Assembly (NCBI GenBank): GCA_016650295.1
Contig: JAENWA010000114.1
Coordinates: forward strand, 1 to 64,000
Origin: Desulfuromonadales bacterium
GTDB lineage: Bacteria; Desulfobacterota; Desulfuromonadia; Geobacterales; Pseudopelobacteraceae
Direction of reading: 5' to 3'
Length of the DNA: 64,000 nucleotides
This document shows positions 2,376 through 52,698 of this stretch, one piece after another. The notes beneath the pieces were generated by a model, which worked only from the letters and a program-made list of their open reading frames with translations, had not been told where the DNA came from and ran no database searches. Each line of letters opens with the position of its first letter. Positions within the stretch are counted from its first letter, which is position 1. The translations under genes and the position numbers were made by a program.

Positions 2376-2439
2376 ATGATTACTGTAGCAGAAACCGCTT
2401 TCTCATGAAAATCAAAATGATCTATCAGGGTGCCCGAAT

Positions 2440-3321
2440 ATGACAAAAAAAACAGTGATCATCGGCGCAGGAATATTCATGTTCCTCGGCCTGCTCTTTA
2501 TCGGCTGTATCTTCATTGCCAGGGCCTTGCTGGGTACCGGTGACAGTCAGTTTGTCGAGAAGTCGGGTATCGGTCTGGTTGAAGTAAAGGGCATGATCCT
2601 GGATTCACGGGAGACCATCCGCCAGCTGCGGCATTTTCTGAAAAAAGACGATATCAAGGCCGTTGTACTGCGGGTGGATTCTCCGGGCGGAGTGGTGGCC
2701 CCTTCCCAGGAGATCTATGAAGAGGTCAAAAAGTTTGCTGCAAAAAAGAAGATTGTCGTCTCCATGGGGAGCCTGGCTGCTTCCGGCGGATACTATATCT
2801 CAGCACCTGCCACCCTGATCTATGCCAACCCGGGTACCATTACCGCCAGCATCGGCGTGATCATCAAGCTGTCCAATATAGAGTCGCTGATGGACAAGAT
2901 CGGCATCAAGTCCACGGTTATCAAGACCGGTAAATTCAAGGATTCGGGTTCTCCGGTGCGTGAGTTGACCGCCGAGGACCGGGCCATGTTCCAGTCGGTC
3001 ATCGACAGCACGCACAGCCAGTTCATCCGGGCGGTCGCCAGCGGCCGCAAGCTGCCGGAAGATGAGGTACGCAGAATTGCCGACGGCCGTGTACTCTCGG
3101 GTGAACAGGCCCTGGCGTTCAAGCTGGTGGATCGACTGGGTACACTGCAGGACGCCATCGAAGAGGCCGGAAGGCTGGCAGGAATCAAGGGCGAACCGGA
3201 AGTTATCCTGCCTCCTAAAAAGAAACTCAATTACCTGGATATACTTTCGGGCGGCGTGGAGGAAAAATTTGAGGGAGCGCTGGGCAAGGTAGGACGAGGC
3301 ATGCAGCTGATGTACGAGTAG
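2440..3321 (+). CDS. sppA: Signal peptide peptidase SppA, 36-kDa type
   Basis: Membrane-anchored serine peptidase of the S49 family that degrades released signal peptides. The protein has 293 residues. Residues 4-30 form an N-terminal membrane anchor. The core follows: VDSPGGVVAPSQEIYEEV, then SLAASGGYYISAP with the probable nucleophile Ser115, then IKTGKFKDSGSP with the probable general-base Lys at about 165-167. The length fits the short form, which works as an oligomer, rather than the fused 67-kDa E. coli form. It is transcribed alone and convergent with the DAHP synthase gene, with a GC-rich hairpin between them. Confidence 0.92.
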   Translation: MTKKTVIIGAGIFMFLGLLFIGCIFIARALLGTGDSQFVEKSGIGLVEVKGMILDSRETIRQLRHFLKKDDIKAVVLRVDSPGGVVAPSQEIYEEVKKFAAKKKIVVSMGSLAASGGYYISAPATLIYANPGTITASIGVIIKLSNIESLMDKIGIKSTVIKTGKFKDSGSPVRELTAEDRAMFQSVIDSTHSQFIRAVASGRKLPEDEVRRIADGRVLSGEQALAFKLVDRLGTLQDAIEEAGRLAGIKGEPEVILPPKKKLNYLDILSGGVEEKFEGALGKVGRGMQLMYE

Positions 3322-3358
3322 GGGCGGCCCTGTGTGGCCGCCCACTGGCCGCCCCGCT
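3322..3358. terminator. GC-rich hairpin between convergent sppA and DAHP synthase genes
   Basis: GGGCGGCC and GGCCGCCC pair across a six-base spacer, and a further CTGGCCGCCCC follows. There is no T-run on either strand, so it may be a bidirectional transcription barrier or a GC-rich intergenic repeat rather than a classical intrinsic terminator. Confidence 0.4.
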
Positions 3359-3361
3359 TGG

Positions 3362-4414
3362 TTACTTCCTTTTCTGCAATTCCTTGTGAGCTTCCAGCAA
3401 GGTCCGCTCGGTTGTTGCCCAGTCGATACAGGCGTCAGTGATTGATACCCCGTATTTCAGCTGGCCGGGGTCGGCAGCTATCTTCTGATTGCCCGCTTCA
3501 AGGTTGCTTTCGATCATGACACCCGAGATGGAGCTGTTGCCGTCAACCACCTGCCGGACAACACATTCCAGTACCTCGGGTTGTTTCTGGTAGTCCTTGT
3601 TGGAATTGCCGTGGCTGCAGTCCACCATAATGGTCGGGGAAAGGCCGTTTTTTATCAGGCTCTCTTCGGTGTGGATTATGTCTTCGGGGTGGTAATTGAC
3701 TTTGCGTGACCCGCCTCGCAGGACGATATGCACATCCGGGTTGCCGGTGGTCTGAATGATGGAGGTGCGACCATCACGGTTTATGCCGAGGAAACTATGT
3801 GGATGCTGGGCCGCTTTCATGGCGTCCATGGCGATCTGCAGGTTGCCGTCGGTGCCGTTTTTGAATCCGACCGGGAAGGACAGTCCGCTGGACATCTCAC
3901 GGTGGGTCTGGGATTCGGTGGTACGTGCGCCGATGGCGCCCCAGCTGATCATATCGGCCACATATTCCGGGGTGATCGGATCGAGCATCTCATTGGCAAC
4001 CGGCACTTCAAGTTCGGTTATCTTCAGAAGCAGGCCGCGGGCAATACCAAGGCCTTTTGATATAAGGTGACTGCCATTCATATCAGGATCATTAATCAAC
4101 CCTTTCCAGCCGACGGTCGTACGGGGTTTTTCAAAATAGACCCGCATCACCAGCATGAGCTGGTCATCCACCCGGCGGGCAAGGTCTGCCAGTCGTTTGG
4201 CATACTCCACTGCTGCTTCGGTATCGTGGATGGAGCAGGGGCCGACCACCACCATCAGGCGCTGGTCCCGGCGGTGCAGGATATCCTTGAGCCGTTCGCG
4301 GCTTTTGTTGACAAATTCGGCGCGTAGCGCGGAAAGCGGAAAGACCTGACGCAGGTCCCCAGGCGCAATAATTGGTGTGATGCCGGTGATTTTGAGGTTG
4401 TTGGTCTTGATCAT
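3362..4414 (-). CDS. aroF: 3-deoxy-7-phosphoheptulonate (DAHP) synthase, class I
   Basis: Condenses phosphoenolpyruvate with erythrose 4-phosphate in the first step of the shikimate pathway. The 350-residue length and motifs (VVGPCSIHD at about 57-65, MRVYFEKPRTTVGWKGL, GARTTESQTHRE, GLSFPVGFKNGTDG, MVDCSHGNSNKDY) place it in the AroG/AroF/AroH (type I-alpha) group of TIM-barrel enzymes, which are feedback-inhibited by aromatic amino acids. Which amino acid inhibits this copy cannot be told by eye, so the symbol is generic. The start has GGGAG nine bases upstream. It is divergent from gmhB, with about 130 bases between. Confidence 0.93.
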   Translation of the reverse strand: MIKTNNLKITGITPIIAPGDLRQVFPLSALRAEFVNKSRERLKDILHRRDQRLMVVVGPCSIHDTEAAVEYAKRLADLARRVDDQLMLVMRVYFEKPRTTVGWKGLINDPDMNGSHLISKGLGIARGLLLKITELEVPVANEMLDPITPEYVADMISWGAIGARTTESQTHREMSSGLSFPVGFKNGTDGNLQIAMDAMKAAQHPHSFLGINRDGRTSIIQTTGNPDVHIVLRGGSRKVNYHPEDIIHTEESLIKNGLSPTIMVDCSHGNSNKDYQKQPEVLECVVRQVVDGNSSISGVMIESNLEAGNQKIAADPGQLKYGVSITDACIDWATTERTLLEAHKELQKRK

Positions 4415-26162: not shown

Positions 26163-26180
26163 TTACACGTAAAAAGAAAT

Positions 26181-26215
26181 AAAAACGCCCGTTACGGAAA
26201 CGTAGCGGGCGTTTT
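26181..26215 (+). terminator. Intrinsic terminator after korC
   Basis: AAAAACGCCCGTTACG and CGTAGCGGGCGTTTTT pair with a GAAA loop, allowing a G-T pair, and the stem ends in a T-run. The symmetric A/T tails would let it act in both directions, but only korC has a nearby upstream gene to end. Confidence 0.9.
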
Positions 26216-26334: not shown

Positions 26335-26739
26335 TCAAACATAATGCTTTGAGGATATAAATTCTCCCATGTCAGAATCAATTTTCTGGATATGATCAAA
26401 TAACCAGTTCTTCACGAAATCAAAGACGTCCTCTGAAATATTGTTATGGGAATCTATCAGGTCCCTTTCATACGACAGCACTTTATTTGTAAAACTCACA
26501 TGTTCCAAAATGTGCAGATCGATGTTTTGATAGTCGTATTTCATCATCAGTTTTTCTTCGGTATAAAAATGATAATGAGCATAATTGATAAGTTCATAGA
26601 GCAATCTGGACAGATCATCCTGATTGTTATCCTGTAATTTTATAACACTGGACCTGTTCAACATGTCAAACAGTTTCATATGATGTTCATCAATCACATC
26701 AATTTTTACCGAATATCTGTCTTTCCATTCAATCAACAT
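26335..26739 (-). CDS. Bacteriohemerythrin
   Basis: Oxygen-binding di-iron four-helix protein of about 134 residues. The iron ligands are visible in order: IDEHH, HYHFYTEE (His and Glu), HILEH and HIQKIDSD near the C-terminus, matching the H...HxxxE...HxxxH...HxxxxD pattern. I prefer the Met at 26739 because GGGGTGATC, a strong match to the anti-Shine-Dalgarno, lies just upstream and the product then begins MLIEWKDRYSV as typical bacteriohemerythrins do; an ATG 11 codons earlier is the alternative. Roles in oxygen sensing, delivery or protection are known. It lies downstream of a riboswitch-controlled ihfA-like frame. Confidence 0.9.
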   Translation of the reverse strand: MLIEWKDRYSVKIDVIDEHHMKLFDMLNRSSVIKLQDNNQDDLSRLLYELINYAHYHFYTEEKLMMKYDYQNIDLHILEHVSFTNKVLSYERDLIDSHNNISEDVFDFVKNWLFDHIQKIDSDMGEFISSKHYV

Positions 26740-26774
26740 ACAGATCACCCCATGCATCATTGCAGTCTGCAAAT

Positions 26775-27055
26775 CTAATCATGTTTATTGATTATTTGCC
26801 GTAATACGGCAGTTGACTTAAACGTTACTACTCTCCTGGATTCAATACAGATGTCTGCGCCGGTATGAGGATTTCTTCCTTTACGATCTTTTTCTACTTG
26901 ACCTCAAAGTTGCCAAAACCGGCTATCTTGCTGTTCTCACCGGACTCAAGGGTTACTTTCATACGTGAAAATAAGGACTCCAGAATCTCGGATGATTCTT
27001 TCTTTGAGAATCCTGTCTTGAAATGGATTCGTTCGATCGAGTCTGCTTTGGCCAT
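26775..27055 (-). pseudogene. ihfA: IHF alpha/HU-family DNA-binding protein, one-base frameshift
   Basis: The first frame begins MAKADSIERIHFKTGFSKKE and stops after GFGNFEVK at 26894-26896. The missing half is present in another frame: KDRKGRNPHTGADICIES, then RRVVTFKSTAVLRQIINKHD, ending at 26775. Together they would give a normal 93-residue IHF/HU protein if one base were restored near 26895. So this is a single-base deletion, real or a sequencing error. The DNA-intercalating RNP arm lies in the shifted part, so the truncated product should not bend DNA. The reading end is almost adjacent to the hemerythrin gene. Confidence 0.85.
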
Positions 27056-27112
27056 GTATCGACCCCGGTAGTAGATTATTATTTTCATGGCGTTGGCCGG
27101 TTTTGGTTTTTA

Positions 27113-27150
27113 CACAAAAAAATGCCTACTCCGGATAAAAGGGTAGGCAT
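27113..27150 (-). terminator. Intrinsic terminator, riboswitch expression platform
   Basis: On the minus strand ATGCCTAC and GTAGGCAT pair around a 13-base loop and are followed by seven T residues. It lies between the riboswitch aptamer and the ihfA-like start, so readthrough is needed to express the downstream genes. Confidence 0.85.
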
Positions 27151-27154
27151 GTGT

Positions 27155-27245
27155 CGTTACTGCCATTTCGACAACCCCGCTATCCATTGCTGGACTGGAA
27201 GTTTTGCGCCGCCAAGTCTCCCTGGCTTTACCCTTTCGATGACAA
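27155..27245 (-). promoter_or_regulatory. GEMM-I cyclic-dinucleotide riboswitch aptamer
   Basis: On the minus strand AGGGUAAA precedes a helix GCCAGG/CUUGGC closed by a GAGA (GNRA) tetraloop, then GGCGCAAAA, a short UCCA/UGGA helix, and the hallmark UAGCGGGGUUGUCGAAAUGG. These correspond to the Vc2 c-di-GMP-I aptamer elements in the same order and spacing. Aligned to Vc2, the ligand-contacting G20 position is G (the c-di-GMP-type base), whereas the C92 position appears to be U. Ligand choice between c-di-GMP and cGAMP therefore stays open. A consensus promoter lies just upstream and a terminator just downstream. Confidence 0.85.
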
Positions 27246-27264
27246 ACAATATTCAGTTTGCAAC

Positions 27265-27293
27265 TGTATACACCACAAAACTATGAATGTCAA
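27265..27293 (-). promoter_or_regulatory. Sigma-70-type promoter of the riboswitch RNA
   Basis: On the minus strand TTGACA (27288-27293) and TATACA (27265-27270) are separated by exactly 17 bases. Transcription should begin at about 27258, shortly before the aptamer. The AT-rich stretch from here to 27495 shows no other gene. Confidence 0.8.
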
Positions 27294-30169: not shown

Positions 30170-30436
30170 ATGGAAACAACGCTGATGTCAAGCAAGGGGC
30201 AGGTAATTATCCCCAAAGCGATCCGAACCAGTCTCCACTGGCGTCCCGGCACACGTTTCTCCGTTGAGGAGACCCAGGCCGGTGTACTGCTTAAGCCCTT
30301 GAATACATTTTCCGCTACCGATCTTGAGAGCGGGCTGGGGTGCGCCGGCTATGGCGGCCCCGTGAAAAGCATTGAGAAAATGCGCGAGGGTATCGACGAA
30401 GAGCTGGCGCGGACCTGGCGGAAGGAAGGGCGCTGA
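30170..30436 (+). CDS. vapB: AbrB-type antitoxin of a second VapBC module
   Basis: An 88-residue antitoxin. METTLMSSKGQVIIPKAIRT is the AbrB/SpoVT DNA-binding signature; the tail (SIEKMREGIDEELARTWRKE) would contact the toxin. AAGGTGGTG before the ATG serves as ribosome-binding site. A direct repeat CTTACCAAAT/CTTACCAAGG lies about 20 bases upstream and could be the operator. It is clearly different in sequence from the antitoxin at 10876-11106. Confidence 0.88.
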   Translation: METTLMSSKGQVIIPKAIRTSLHWRPGTRFSVEETQAGVLLKPLNTFSATDLESGLGCAGYGGPVKSIEKMREGIDEELARTWRKEGR

Positions 30437-30834
30437 TGATCGTCCTCGACACCAACGTCTGGGTGCGTTATGTAACCAACGACGACCATCTCCAGGCCCG
30501 GCGCGCATTGCATCTGCTGGAGCAGGCCGAGGCAGTCTTTCTGCCCAAAACTGTTGTGTTGGAGTTGGAATGGGTGCTGCGGGCGGTCTATGGCCTGAAT
30601 ACGGCCGCAATTCAGCGGTCACTGCTGCATATCCTGGGATTGCCCATGGTTATCGCCGAATCTCCGGGCCAGATTGCCACTGCGCTCGGTTACCATGCCC
30701 AGGGCTTTGACTTTGCCGACGCTCTGCTTCTGGCGGCCAGCGAAGGCGAACAAACCTTCTATACCTTCGACAAAAGCTTTGTTCTCAAGGGGAAGCATTC
30801 CGTTCCCGTAGTAAAGGGTGTTCCGGCGAAATAG
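30436..30834 (+). CDS. vapC: PIN-domain toxin of the second VapBC module
   Basis: A 132-residue PIN ribonuclease toxin. MIVLDTNVWVRY gives the first catalytic Asp, VVLELEWVLR the middle Glu and FDFADALLLAAS the C-terminal Asp pair, followed by TFDKSF. It overlaps the antitoxin stop by one base (TGATG), so translation is coupled. The target RNA is unknown. Confidence 0.88.
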   Translation: MIVLDTNVWVRYVTNDDHLQARRALHLLEQAEAVFLPKTVVLELEWVLRAVYGLNTAAIQRSLLHILGLPMVIAESPGQIATALGYHAQGFDFADALLLAASEGEQTFYTFDKSFVLKGKHSVPVVKGVPAK

Positions 30835-41707: not shown

Positions 41708-44011
41708 CTACTTGATGCAGACCTTGCGCACCTCTTTCAAATCAGTCAGCCCCTCAAAGCACTTCAGAATACCGTCCTGTTTCAGCGTTGTCATGCCATC
41801 GGAAATGGCCTGACGGCGGATCAATTCAATCTCCGATTTACGCTTGATGAGTGACTTCATCGGGTCGGTTCCCTCCAGAAGTTCGTGCAGGCCGAGACGT
41901 CCCTTATAGCCTGAATCACCGCATTTCGGGCAGCCGACCGCTTTATACAGCCGGATGCTCCCGGGCTCAATGCCGGTCTTTTTAAAATCCTCGGCGCCAT
42001 ATTCGATGATGATATCTTCCAGCTCTTTCTGTTCGGGGGTATATTCCTGCTTGCAAGTACCGCACAGGCGACGCGCCAGGCGCTGGGCGAGAATACAGAG
42101 GATGGCATCGGAAAAGCTGAAGGGGTCGAGTTCCATATCCAGAAGACGGGTGACGGTATCCGGGGCCGAGTTGGTATGCAATGTGGAAAATACCAGATGC
42201 CCGGTCAGTGACGATTCGATGCCGATCTCGGCGGTCTCCTGGTCGCGCATCTCGCCGACCATGATCACATCCGGGTCGGCGCGCAGGAAGGAACGCAGCG
42301 CGGCGGCAAAGGTAAAGCCGATCTTGGGGTGAACCTGGACTTGGCGCAGGCCGCGCTGGGTGATCTCCACCGGGTCTTCGGCGGTCCAGATCTTTGTTTC
42401 GGGCGTATTGATGACCGAAATGGCCGAATGCAGGGTTGTCGTTTTACCCGAACCGGTCGGGCCGACCACCAGGATCAGGCCGTAAGGCTGCTTGATGCAG
42501 GCCTCCAGCACACGTGAGTTGCGTTCGGTCAGGCCCAGCTTGTCATAGGGCAGGGCCGCTTCGCCCGAGGCCAGCACACGCATGACCACATCCTCCAGTT
42601 GACCGGCGGTCGGGACGGTGGCAACGCGCAGCTCCACATCGATCGGACCGAACTTTTTGAAGTCGATCTTGCCGTCCTGCGGCTTGCGGCGCTCTGATAT
42701 GTCGAGTCCGCACATGATCTTGATGCGCGAGGGGATCGCATATTTATACTTATAGGGGATGCGCTGGTACAGCTGGCAGCGGCCGTCGATGCGCATGCGC
42801 ACCTGAACATCCTCCTTGCCGGGGTACGGTTCGATATGGATATCGGAAACTTTTTTCTGCACGGCGTCCATGATGATCTTGTTGACCAGCTGAACAATGA
42901 CGCTGTCCTGTTCGGAGACCTTCTGGGATTCGTTCTCGATCTCCGGTTCATCGTCGGTATCCAGTTTGTTGATCAGATCGTTGATGCTGCCTGAAGCCCC
43001 CGGCGATCCGTAGTGGTAGAAGAGATTGATGTAACTCTGGATATCCTCGCGGAAGGCGCCGGTATAGCTGATACGCCTGTATTCGGGGTAGACGAACTTG
43101 ATAGTGTCATGCCGGTTCAGATCGCTGGGGTCTTCCATGATGATATGCAGGTTGCCGTTCTCGATCTTGAACGGGACCCAGCCTTCCTTTGTCAAACGGT
43201 CCGGTTTGACCCGTTTCAGGAGTTCATCTTCCAGCGGCGGGGCGGCCGGGTCATAACCGATGAATTCCGATCCGAAGTAGAGGGACAGATTTTTGGCCAT
43301 GTCTTCCTTCGACACTCCGAAGTCCCGCATCAGGATACCGTCCAGGCCTATCTTCGGGACATCCGGGTGGAGAATGGCCTTCTCAATGATTTTATCGTCA
43401 ATCTGGTTTTTATCCAGCAGATAGTTGTAGCGGGGCATCTGGCGGATGACCTTGGTGGTGGCCGAGAGACGGTAGATATTGTGGATGGCGACGGAGAGTG
43501 AAGCGGCCAGTTCGGTCGCATAGCTGATGTCGATGTCGCTGAAAAGGGCGTTGTCCTTTCTGTTGATAATCTGGATCACGCCGATCAGGGTTTTCTGGAA
43601 TTTCATCGGCACGCACAGAACCTGTTTCGTCAGGAAGCCGGTCTTTTTGTCCCAGCTGTCGTCGAATTTGATGTTGCTGTTGATCGTGTACAGCTCATGG
43701 GCATCATAGGCGTTTTTAACATGGAGAACGTCTCCTGAAATGGCGCAGTGACCGGCCAGACTTGTTTCACTGATCGGGATGACGATCTGCTGGATTTCGG
43801 TACCGGATTTGACCTTGGAGATCAGCTGCTTGCGTTTGGAGTCAGCCACGTAGATGGTGAGTCGCTCGGCATTGAACAGCACGGCAATGCTGTCCTTGAT
43901 ATGGGTCAGAATGGCGTTGAGGTTGTCGGCCGAATGGAGTTCGTTGATCTGGTCCATCAACCGCTTGCGATACTCATGCTGCATTTTGAGATCTTCCGAT
44001 TTCTGGACCAT
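41708..44011 (-). CDS. GAF-domain-containing PilB/GspE-type assembly ATPase
   Basis: A 767-residue ATPase of the type II secretion/type IV pilus family. Residues about 15-180 form a GAF sensor domain (LTIYVADSKRKQLISKVKSG; LAGHCAISGDVL). A MshEN/GspE N-domain follows (about 220-330), then the ATPase core with VVGPTGSGKTTTLHSAISVI (Walker A), Asp box FLRADPDVIMVGEMRDQETA (Walker B), LTGHLVFSTLHTN (His box), and a zinc-binding CGTCKQ...CPKCG near the end. GAF domains fused to this ATPase are uncommon, so activity may depend on a small-molecule or cyclic-nucleotide signal. No other pilus genes are adjacent; pilins are about 9 kb away. Confidence 0.9.
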   Translation of the reverse strand: MVQKSEDLKMQHEYRKRLMDQINELHSADNLNAILTHIKDSIAVLFNAERLTIYVADSKRKQLISKVKSGTEIQQIVIPISETSLAGHCAISGDVLHVKNAYDAHELYTINSNIKFDDSWDKKTGFLTKQVLCVPMKFQKTLIGVIQIINRKDNALFSDIDISYATELAASLSVAIHNIYRLSATTKVIRQMPRYNYLLDKNQIDDKIIEKAILHPDVPKIGLDGILMRDFGVSKEDMAKNLSLYFGSEFIGYDPAAPPLEDELLKRVKPDRLTKEGWVPFKIENGNLHIIMEDPSDLNRHDTIKFVYPEYRRISYTGAFREDIQSYINLFYHYGSPGASGSINDLINKLDTDDEPEIENESQKVSEQDSVIVQLVNKIIMDAVQKKVSDIHIEPYPGKEDVQVRMRIDGRCQLYQRIPYKYKYAIPSRIKIMCGLDISERRKPQDGKIDFKKFGPIDVELRVATVPTAGQLEDVVMRVLASGEAALPYDKLGLTERNSRVLEACIKQPYGLILVVGPTGSGKTTTLHSAISVINTPETKIWTAEDPVEITQRGLRQVQVHPKIGFTFAAALRSFLRADPDVIMVGEMRDQETAEIGIESSLTGHLVFSTLHTNSAPDTVTRLLDMELDPFSFSDAILCILAQRLARRLCGTCKQEYTPEQKELEDIIIEYGAEDFKKTGIEPGSIRLYKAVGCPKCGDSGYKGRLGLHELLEGTDPMKSLIKRKSEIELIRRQAISDGMTTLKQDGILKCFEGLTDLKEVRKVCIK

Positions 44012-49920: not shown

Positions 49921-51300
49921 ATGGACAGGATTCTGATAGTAGAAGACGATCGCTTCTTCCGTGAAATGTACGTCAACCTGCTCCAGGCCGAGGGGTATCT
50001 TGCCGACACCGCTTCCTGCGGTTCCGAGGCCTTCGACCTGCTGTCCAGAAATCGTTACGGCCTGGTCATTACCGATCTGGTCATGCCCGATGTCAGCGGA
50101 ATGGAAATACTTGCACAGGTCAGGGAATGCTACCCAGGTGTTGACGTTATAATGGTTACCGGCAACGCCAACCTTGAATCCGCCATCTTTGCTCTCAAAC
50201 ATGGTGCCCGTGACTACCTGACCAAGCCGGTCAATCATGACGAGTTCCTGCATTCTGTAGCTCAATGTATGCAGCAGCGCCGTTTGCTGGATGAAAACGA
50301 TGAACTCAAGAACCTGCTCAACTTGTTTCAGTCCAGCCAGGCGATAGCCGGATGCCTTGAGATGGATCGAGTGTACCACCTGATGGTGGAGGCGGTTGCA
50401 CGGGAGGCGGGTGTATCTCGCGCCCTGGGGCTGTTTCAGGGGGATGAGGGCCTTGAGATAAAGGAAGCCAAAGGAATTTCGGCAAGCGCGGCGCAGCAGT
50501 ACGGTGATAACGTGCTGGGCCTGATTAACACGAGTCAGCCCCCCAACCGTCTGATAGTAAAGATTCAGTTGAGCAATGTGTTGCCGGAAGTTGGGGCAGT
50601 CGCCGCGGACATTACCGAGGCCTATCTCATCTTTATGCGTAACAATGAGGATTTGCTGGGGGTTATTGCTGTTTTCAACGAACCGGAACTGAGCCTGCCC
50701 GATATTCATCCCAAAAAAAAGAATATCCGGTTTTTGCTGGAACAGTCGTTACGCGCCTTTCAGAATGCCGAGAACTACACCAATGCAAAGGACATGCTGT
50801 TCATTGATGACCTGAGCGGCCTCTTCAATTACCGCTATCTGGAGGTTGCCCTTGACCGGGAACTGAAGCGGGTAGAGCGTTATGCCTCACATCTGGCTGT
50901 CCTGTTCCTTGATCTGGATGCTTTCAAGCAGATTAATGACAGCCACGGCCATCTGGTCGGCAGCCGGGTACTTCGGGAGATGGCTGACCTGCTGAAAAAG
51001 TATACCCGTGAGGTGGATGTGGTTATCCGCTACGGCGGCGACGAATATACCATTATCCTTGTGGAGACAAGTGCGGAAACCGCCGCGATTGTTGCAGAAC
51101 GTATTCGTTCCCAGGTTGAATCACACGCTTTTCTGGCATCGGAAGGTTATGCTATCAATCTGACCTGCAGTATCGGCTACGCCTGTTGCCCGGAAGATTC
51201 AATGTCAAAACAGCTGTTGCTGGATATGGCGGATCAGGCCATGTACGGCGGCAAGGCCGAAGGAAAGAATTGTGTCGTCCGCTATACAAAACCCTCCTGA
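49921..51300 (+). CDS. gacA: Response regulator with Hypr-type GGDEF domain (GacA-like cyclic-dinucleotide synthase)
   Basis: A 459-residue protein: REC domain (1-120) with phosphoacceptor Asp52 (VITDLVMP), a GAF-like middle (about 135-280), and GGDEF domain (about 290-455) with RYGGDEY at 370-376. A product-inhibition I-site, RxxD, is at 363-366. Canonical diguanylate cyclases have Asp in the GHxxGD motif; here it reads GHLVGS, so Ser348. Exactly this Asp-to-Ser change (Ser347) marks the hybrid promiscuous (Hypr) enzyme GacA/GSU1658 of Geobacter sulfurreducens, which makes 3',3'-cGAMP. The gene immediately precedes hisS. I infer a cGAMP (and c-di-GMP) synthase activated by phosphorylation. 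Confidence 0.87.
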   Translation: MDRILIVEDDRFFREMYVNLLQAEGYLADTASCGSEAFDLLSRNRYGLVITDLVMPDVSGMEILAQVRECYPGVDVIMVTGNANLESAIFALKHGARDYLTKPVNHDEFLHSVAQCMQQRRLLDENDELKNLLNLFQSSQAIAGCLEMDRVYHLMVEAVAREAGVSRALGLFQGDEGLEIKEAKGISASAAQQYGDNVLGLINTSQPPNRLIVKIQLSNVLPEVGAVAADITEAYLIFMRNNEDLLGVIAVFNEPELSLPDIHPKKKNIRFLLEQSLRAFQNAENYTNAKDMLFIDDLSGLFNYRYLEVALDRELKRVERYASHLAVLFLDLDAFKQINDSHGHLVGSRVLREMADLLKKYTREVDVVIRYGGDEYTIILVETSAETAAIVAERIRSQVESHAFLASEGYAINLTCSIGYACCPEDSMSKQLLLDMADQAMYGGKAEGKNCVVRYTKPS

Positions 51301-51453: not shown

Positions 51454-52698
51454 ATGGCTATTACTGCAATTAAAGGTTTTAACGACATCCTTCCTGCTGA
51501 ATCCGGCAGGTGGCAGCATATCGAACAGGCCGCCCGGCGCGTATTCGAGTTGAATGGATTTTCCGAGATCCGTGTGCCGATCATGGAGAAGACGGATCTG
51601 TTTTGCCGCTCCATCGGCGATGCGACCGATATCGTCGAGAAGGAAATGTACTCGTTTGTCGATAAGGGTGAGAACAGTGTTACCTTGCGTCCCGAGGGAA
51701 CGGCAGGGGTCATGCGGGCCTTCATCGAGCACAAACTGTATGCCCAGGACCCGGTGGCAAAATTGTACTATCTGGGCCCCATGTTCCGTTATGAGCGCCC
51801 CCAGAAAGGACGCTACCGCCAGTTTCACCAGATCGGAGCCGAGATCACCGGCGTACATGATCCGTTGGCCGACGCCCAGGTGCTGAATATGCTGGTGCAG
51901 TTTTTTCGCGAAATCGGCCTGGACGAGCCGCAACTGCAGGTAAATTCCCTGGGGTGTCCCGAGTGTCGTCCCGCCTATCGTGCCGCCTTGATCGAATTTC
52001 TCGAAAAGCGCGTAGATGCGCTCTGTGAGGATTGTCGCCGCCGCCTGTCCACCAACCCCTTGCGCGCCCTGGATTGCAAGGTTCCCGGCTGTATCGAAGC
52101 GACCGCCGGTGCTCCGTCGGTACTGGACAGTCTCTGCACAGGCTGTGACGAGCACTTCAGCGGCGTGAAGCGCTATCTGGAACTGACCGGCACCTCGTAC
52201 AGCATCAACCCCCGCATGGTGCGCGGGCTGGATTACTATACCCGTACCACCTTTGAGATGGTTACGACGCTGCTGGGCTCCCAGTCGGCCGTGGCAGCCG
52301 GAGGCCGCTACGACGGGCTGATCTCGCAGCTGGGCGGTCCGGCCATCCCCGGTATCGGCTTTGCCATGGGGGTGGAGAGGGTGGCGCTCCTCCTGGGCGA
52401 GAAGGCGTTCACCCGTCCGCCGGACCTGTTCATGGCAACGCTTGGCTCAGGCGAGCGGGCTTTTGCCTTCAATCTGATGCATAAGCTGTTGCAGAAGGGC
52501 ATTCGGGTCGAGATGGATTATGAGGGAAAGAGCCTGAAAAGCCAGATGCGCCGCGCCGACAAACTGGGCGCACGCTACTGTGCCGTCATCGGGGAGAGCG
52601 AAGTGGCTTCGGGCCGGGCGGTCTTCAAGCGCATGGCGGATGGCGGGCAGGTTGAGGCGGCGATGGAGGTGTCGGAGGTACTAGAAATTTTAAGTTGA
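51454..52698 (+). CDS. hisS: Histidyl-tRNA synthetase
   Basis: Class II synthetase of 414 residues. [20 protein letters not shown] at the start, [31 protein letters not shown] (motif 2), [20 protein letters not shown] and [13 protein letters not shown] (motif 3) are visible, and a C-terminal anticodon-binding domain closes the chain ([20 protein letters not shown]). GATGAGGAT precedes the ATG. Downstream, the base composition changes abruptly into the AT-rich pilin region. Confidence 0.96.

Follow-up and report, generated by a model that had tools for sequence, protein, structure and literature searches.

The locus raises three connected questions: which of two genes following a GEMM-I riboswitch on the minus strand is the working target, which cyclic dinucleotide the RNA senses, and whether that ligand turns the target on or off. 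The window, here and below, is the whole 64,000-nucleotide stretch of DNA that was analyzed. The arrangement is probably a c-di-GMP OFF switch placed before a bacteriohemerythrin gene that is live, with a dead ihfA copy in between. Feature coordinates are collected in Table 1.

For the aptamer, the first-pass annotation had proposed a covariance-model search, with the lack of a significant GEMM-I match counting against it. The search returned RF01051 at 27242–27167 with 49.9 bits, above the gathering score of 35 (E 9.2e-7, model 1–87 complete), and this c-di-GMP-I aptamer was the only Rfam match in the 64-kb window. The GAGA loop (a GNRA tetraloop) and the AGCGGGG core lie on the minus strand where they had been placed. 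The RNA shares with the RF01051 family the three-helix fold, the GNRA loop, the conserved core and the G at the specificity position; it is unlike the family generally in its short third helix and in a Geobacterales expression platform whose antiterminator strand is the 5′ core strand. Two other GEMM-I RNAs (L185 and L199) carry long third-helix insertions, giving elements of 183 and 203 nt, and these are possibly inserted repeats. Upstream of the aptamer, TTGACA (27293–27288) and TATACA (27270–27265) were found on the minus strand with a spacer of 17 nt. The motifs and spacing of the promoter annotated earlier are thus present, and their consensus weakly supports promoter status; promoter-like sites in this stretch were no commoner than chance in a consensus scan, the rule of which leaves out TATACA.

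Table 1. Features of the riboswitch locus and of the Hypr enzyme gene in the window
Feature	Position	Strand	Basis or remark
Putative sigma-70 promoter, TTGACA-17-TATACA	27265..27293	-	Direct reading, consensus only
c-di-GMP-I (GEMM-I) aptamer, G at ligand-specificity position	27167..27242	-	Rfam RF01051
Strand P, 5′ aptamer core GAAAGGGUA	27229..27237	-	Also pairs with terminator left arm
Strand T UACCCUUUU, terminator left arm and loop	27137..27145	-	Partner of P in the antiterminator
Intrinsic terminator hairpin and seven-T tail	27115..27150	-	Direct reading; covariation in relatives
ihfA-like pseudogene	26770..27055	-	Amber TAG at codon 54, 1-nt deletion just after; halves match IHF alpha
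Single-domain bacteriohemerythrin, 134 aa, intact	26335..26739	-	NF033749; ribosome-binding site GGGGTGATC
GC-rich inverted repeat (aacgcccg...cgggcgttttt)	26180..26215	.	Ends transcript, between convergent genes; direct reading
Rec-GGDEF with Hypr-type serine (GHLVGS)	49921..51300	+	GacA-like cGAMP synthase, adjoins hisS; outside the unit

Ligand preference was read from the specificity column of the alignment (column 11), which we take to be position 20 in the numbering of Vc2. This base is G in the window RNA. The source genome (4.07 Mb, 123 contigs) contains 18 GEMM-I RNAs, 16–20 per genome being usual in this family; in their alignment five, the window RNA included, have G and 13 have A, 11 of the latter being of the GEMM-Ib type. 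Two RNAs of this genome (L004 and L005) have A at the position in an otherwise ordinary, non-GEMM-Ib sequence type. For comparison, 17 GEMM-I RNAs are reported in G. sulfurreducens (PMC6456294). Examined for class membership, the window RNA fell outside the GEMM-Ib/cGAMP riboswitches (A at position 20) and within the c-di-GMP type (G). Because of this G, and because A20G switches a Geobacter riboswitch from cGAMP to c-di-GMP selectivity (PMC6456294) and G20A enables cGAMP binding by a class-I RNA (PMC6274999), the window RNA is predicted to sense c-di-GMP.

The first-pass annotation had found the co-occurrence with a Hypr enzyme suggestive. The enzyme is present, a receiver plus GGDEF protein (49921–51300, plus strand) with a GHLVGS signature, and its position beside hisS (51454–52698) fits the described GacA/GSU1658 type. 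It is quite improbable that cGAMP made by this enzyme is the ligand: the gene lies 23 kb from the riboswitch and GEMM-Ib RNAs of the cGAMP type are numerous in the genome, but at the deciding base the window RNA has G where the cGAMP-type members have A, and a riboswitch acts in trans on a diffusible ligand, so that a shared 64-kb window carries no weight. The A-type RNAs at other sites of the genome would instead be the targets of the Hypr enzyme's product, and with the cGAMP-type base in 13 of the 18 GEMM-I RNAs and the c-di-GMP-type base in this one, the suggested link is not upheld. The Geobacter GEMM-Ib cGAMP riboswitches (pilM, pgcA/GSU1761), whose type accounts for the 11 GEMM-Ib-type copies above, are alike in aptamer class and bacterial order; they are ON switches with A at position 20, whereas the c-di-GMP-type window RNA has G and is predicted to be OFF.

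The first downstream gene, an ihfA-like frame annotated from 27055, is present and interrupted. Frames 27055–26885 and 26918–26784 match IHF alpha in two different frames, and a two-frame reading matches Pfam PF00216 and misses the IHF alpha equivalog cut-offs (PRK00285/himA; 100.2 vs 111 and 84.6 vs 120.25 bits). Where the intact paralogues (C3:57827, beside pheT and 63% identical, and C13:110387) read CAG or GAG, the window copy reads TAG, with one base missing a few bases on; an intact IHF alpha reading frame was thus not found here, and the product would stop after 53 residues, short of the beta arms that bind DNA. Unless the assembly is wrong at both lesions, the gene is by its sequence a pseudogene. 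That the lesions are such errors, or a recoding site, and that full IHF alpha is made has a low probability, about that of the cGAMP reading: the assembly is a draft in 123 contigs and, away from the lesions, the codons continue to match IHF alpha, but there are two separate lesions within about ten bases, a C-to-T-type TAG and a 1-nt deletion, and the frames overlap by three codons with no slippery heptamer ahead of the TAG. Programmed ihfA frameshifting was rejected on the three-codon overlap, the lack of a slippery site before the TAG, and the TAG itself. Because the gene carries the TAG and the deletion, the earlier proposal that the riboswitch controls a nucleoid protein is unsupported. 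Extra ihfA copies are described in Geobacter metallireducens (ihfA-3 and the frameshifted ihfA-4; PMC2700814), likewise supernumerary IHF alpha genes of which one is frameshifted; the matched passages of that paper present them without any link to a GEMM RNA.

Since the ihfA-like frame is a pseudogene, the functional target is predicted to be the downstream bacteriohemerythrin gene, which follows at 26739–26335 as annotated and is intact. Its product is a full-length, single-domain match to NF033749 (108.9 bits, cut-off 84), and also matches TIGR02481 (105.6) and PF01814 at full length. The di-iron ligand motifs (H, HxxxE, HxxxH, HxxxxD) are found in the translation as H20, H57/E61, H72/H76 and H113/D118. 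In an alignment of four sequences, read from rows 1, 2 and 4 and from the invariant columns of the N-terminal part, H20, H57 and E61 do not vary. The ribosome-binding site, GGGGTGATC, is strong, and no terminator was seen between the ihfA remnant and the hemerythrin gene, which would presumably share a transcript with the riboswitch. A search of genome contigs with the hemerythrin returned no close relative, and no close copy was found among three other members of the genus; the nearest relative in the family (genome G074) is 49% identical and has no GEMM RNA. The claim that a GEMM-I riboswitch with its own terminator controls an oxygen-binding protein is therefore retained as a prediction. 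Riboswitch class, protein and type of control are all already known, and a riboswitch-controlled hemerythrin was not found in the literature searched.

The direction of switching was read from the expression platform. An intrinsic terminator follows the aptamer, in agreement with the first-pass annotation; its hairpin (AUGCCUAC...GUAGGCAU) is succeeded by seven T, is kept in relatives with covariation and was recovered there by R1, a subtype covariance model searched in 141 genomes of the order, about 150 loci being read. Strand P (GAAAGGGUA), which contains the specificity G, is complementary to strand T over 9 bp at −12.0 kcal/mol, a value reached by 22 of 5000 shuffled downstream sequences for the window alone, and within T the motif UACC(C/U) is conserved in relatives. 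The antiterminator fold also pairs the P1 3′ strand GGCA with the UGCC adjoining UACCCUUUU. When the RNA was folded by length, the P:T antiterminator (−41.6 kcal/mol) outdid the held aptamer (−27.3 to −29.1 kcal/mol) at 124–136 nt and was the minimum at 128–136 nt, by a margin of 12–14 kcal/mol; with the right arm completed, aptamer plus terminator and antiterminator were level (−43.7 and −43.1 kcal/mol). Even in the absence of ligand the full-length MFE favors the terminator, and a kinetic mechanism is therefore required; kinetic switching has been reported for Cd1 (PMC9262584).

Aptamer and terminator can coexist, and the P:T antiterminator, which is conserved, excludes both, the arrangement of a transcriptional OFF switch. 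Since P:T pairing removes both the ligand pocket and the terminator, readthrough is expected of the RNA without ligand and termination of the RNA with ligand; on these folds the riboswitch most likely turns the hemerythrin gene off, not on, with ligand. Readthrough caused by ligand had been raised beforehand, and the platform predicts ligand-caused termination instead. An ON switch, in which ligand stabilizes an antiterminator to give readthrough, would agree with the Geobacter cGAMP GEMM-Ib members (PMC6456294, PMC9262584), but is unlikely for an RNA whose aptamer and terminator coexist, whose sole strong alternative fold gives up both at once, and whose 5′-core/T pairing is matched within loci (next paragraph). 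As a predicted OFF switch the window RNA resembles Cd1 of Clostridioides difficile, which is turned off by c-di-GMP, in that aptamer and terminator coexist and a transient antiterminator competes with both; for Cd1 the published antiterminator consists of T + A (+H) strands (PMC9262584), whereas in the window RNA the P strand also pairs with T.

Within-locus matching of P and T was assessed in the R1 set by permuting partners between loci. Permutation weakened the core-downstream duplex in the 99 loci that have G as specificity base (z −4.5). After removal of similar elements, the 66 non-redundant loci gave −8.76 kcal/mol within loci vs −8.00 kcal/mol permuted (sd 0.20; z −3.7; 5 of 20,000 permutations), and the same test minus the window's own type gave 13 of 20,000. 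Four other aptamer segments of equal length, used as controls, showed no within-locus effect (2416–4075 of 5000). Duplex energy with shuffled partners was −6.1 kcal/mol, so that mismatched (−8.0) and matched pairs were both far stronger. The variable core base 13 and its partner in T change together (C-G 23, U-A 8, U-G 5, C-A 5; Fisher p 0.01); the core base-10 pair is loosely kept and its covariation alone is weak. Counting contiguous P:T pairs at 6 bp gave 74% in matched and mismatched loci alike, and the separation came from duplex energy only, with a small mean advantage of 0.76 kcal/mol. Because the effect is modest in size and absent from the plain contiguous-pair count, the evidence that P and T match within loci more than by chance is good but not conclusive.

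In the mechanism we propose, transcription would start near 27258 and the c-di-GMP class-I aptamer would be made first. At high c-di-GMP the aptamer would be held closed with the 5′ core strand buried around the ligand, the terminator hairpin would form, and transcription would end ahead of the coding region. With c-di-GMP low, GAAAGGGUA would be free and, together with the P1 3′ strand GGCA, would pair with the emerging left arm (UGCC UACCCUUUU), the terminator would come too late, and the polymerase would cross the dead ihfA copy into the hemerythrin gene. The outcome would be repression of an oxygen-binding protein by c-di-GMP, with O2 binding presumably belonging to the low-c-di-GMP state.

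The same riboswitch subtype was found in Pelotalea chapellei, a Pelobacter MAG and Geobacteraceae bacterium GWC2_55_20, relatives that place the window in Geobacterales. In the Pelobacter MAG (G030) it is followed after 55 nt, and with nothing interposed, by a different hemerythrin (33% identical). Intact IHF/HU genes directly follow GEMM-I RNAs at L142 (G084:C70) and L247 (G019:C65); at L141 (G060:C173) the intact gene stands behind a small heme-protein-like gene (CxxCH motifs) after the GEMM-I RNA, and at L143 (G023:C1) the RNA lies at some distance before it. Judged from these sequences, the GEMM-I plus IHF/HU arrangement recurs and the window copy has lost it. The RNA could then be a relic of the dead ihfA-like gene, with the hemerythrin expressed independently or not at all, and the pseudogene is indeed the first gene after the riboswitch, IHF/HU genes are intact behind GEMM-I RNAs in these four genomes, and the closest hemerythrin relative has no GEMM; we nevertheless consider a relic doubtful, though somewhat less so than an ON switch, since the RNA keeps an intact aptamer, terminator and P:T pairing, the way from the ihfA remnant to an intact hemerythrin frame with a strong ribosome-binding site is free of terminators, and G030 has the subtype before a hemerythrin with no ihf between. 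A working OFF switch for the hemerythrin gene remains the preferred reading.

A rough census of about 150 GEMM loci gave 2 hemerythrin cases (one being the window's) and 5 IHF/HU cases. Because the counts are rough and several loci were fetched for their hemerythrin or IHF/HU match, they indicate recurrence and not enrichment; strong GEMM-hemerythrin or GEMM-IHF enrichment was rejected, 2 of about 150 being not above chance by rough estimate. Elsewhere, R1 matches precede MCP (L089), CheW, chemoreceptor, response-regulator, HD-domain and PilZ genes, neighbors that would fit a gene set of the low-c-di-GMP state. Those before CheW, chemoreceptor-like and HD-domain response-regulator-like genes were seen at L195, L201, L203, L222, L236, L243, L138, L175, L225, L231 and L250.

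Tentatively, and at somewhat less than even chances, the G20 GEMM-I RNAs of Geobacterales form a broad family of OFF switches in which the antiterminator strand is the ligand-binding core, with A20 members in the same cells acting as ON switches. If this is true, sensing and antitermination compete for the same bases, and the readouts of the two messengers are of opposite sign, the c-di-GMP side comprising chemotaxis, c-di-GMP-turnover, IHF/HU and hemerythrin genes. In Geobacter both messengers serve attachment and extracellular electron transfer, and the action of c-di-GMP on gene expression has been called little known (PMC12285248). What most merits a test is the proposed double role, across Geobacterales, of the ligand-binding strand as antiterminator strand, a platform that may have been described earlier.

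Two further observations concern other genes of the window. A PilB/GspE-type ATPase is encoded at 41708–44011 (minus strand) with an N-terminal GAF and an MshEN domain, which binds c-di-GMP in other proteins, and two overlapping small genes at 30170–30834 (plus strand) resemble a pair of AbrB-type antitoxin and PIN-domain (VapC-like) toxin.
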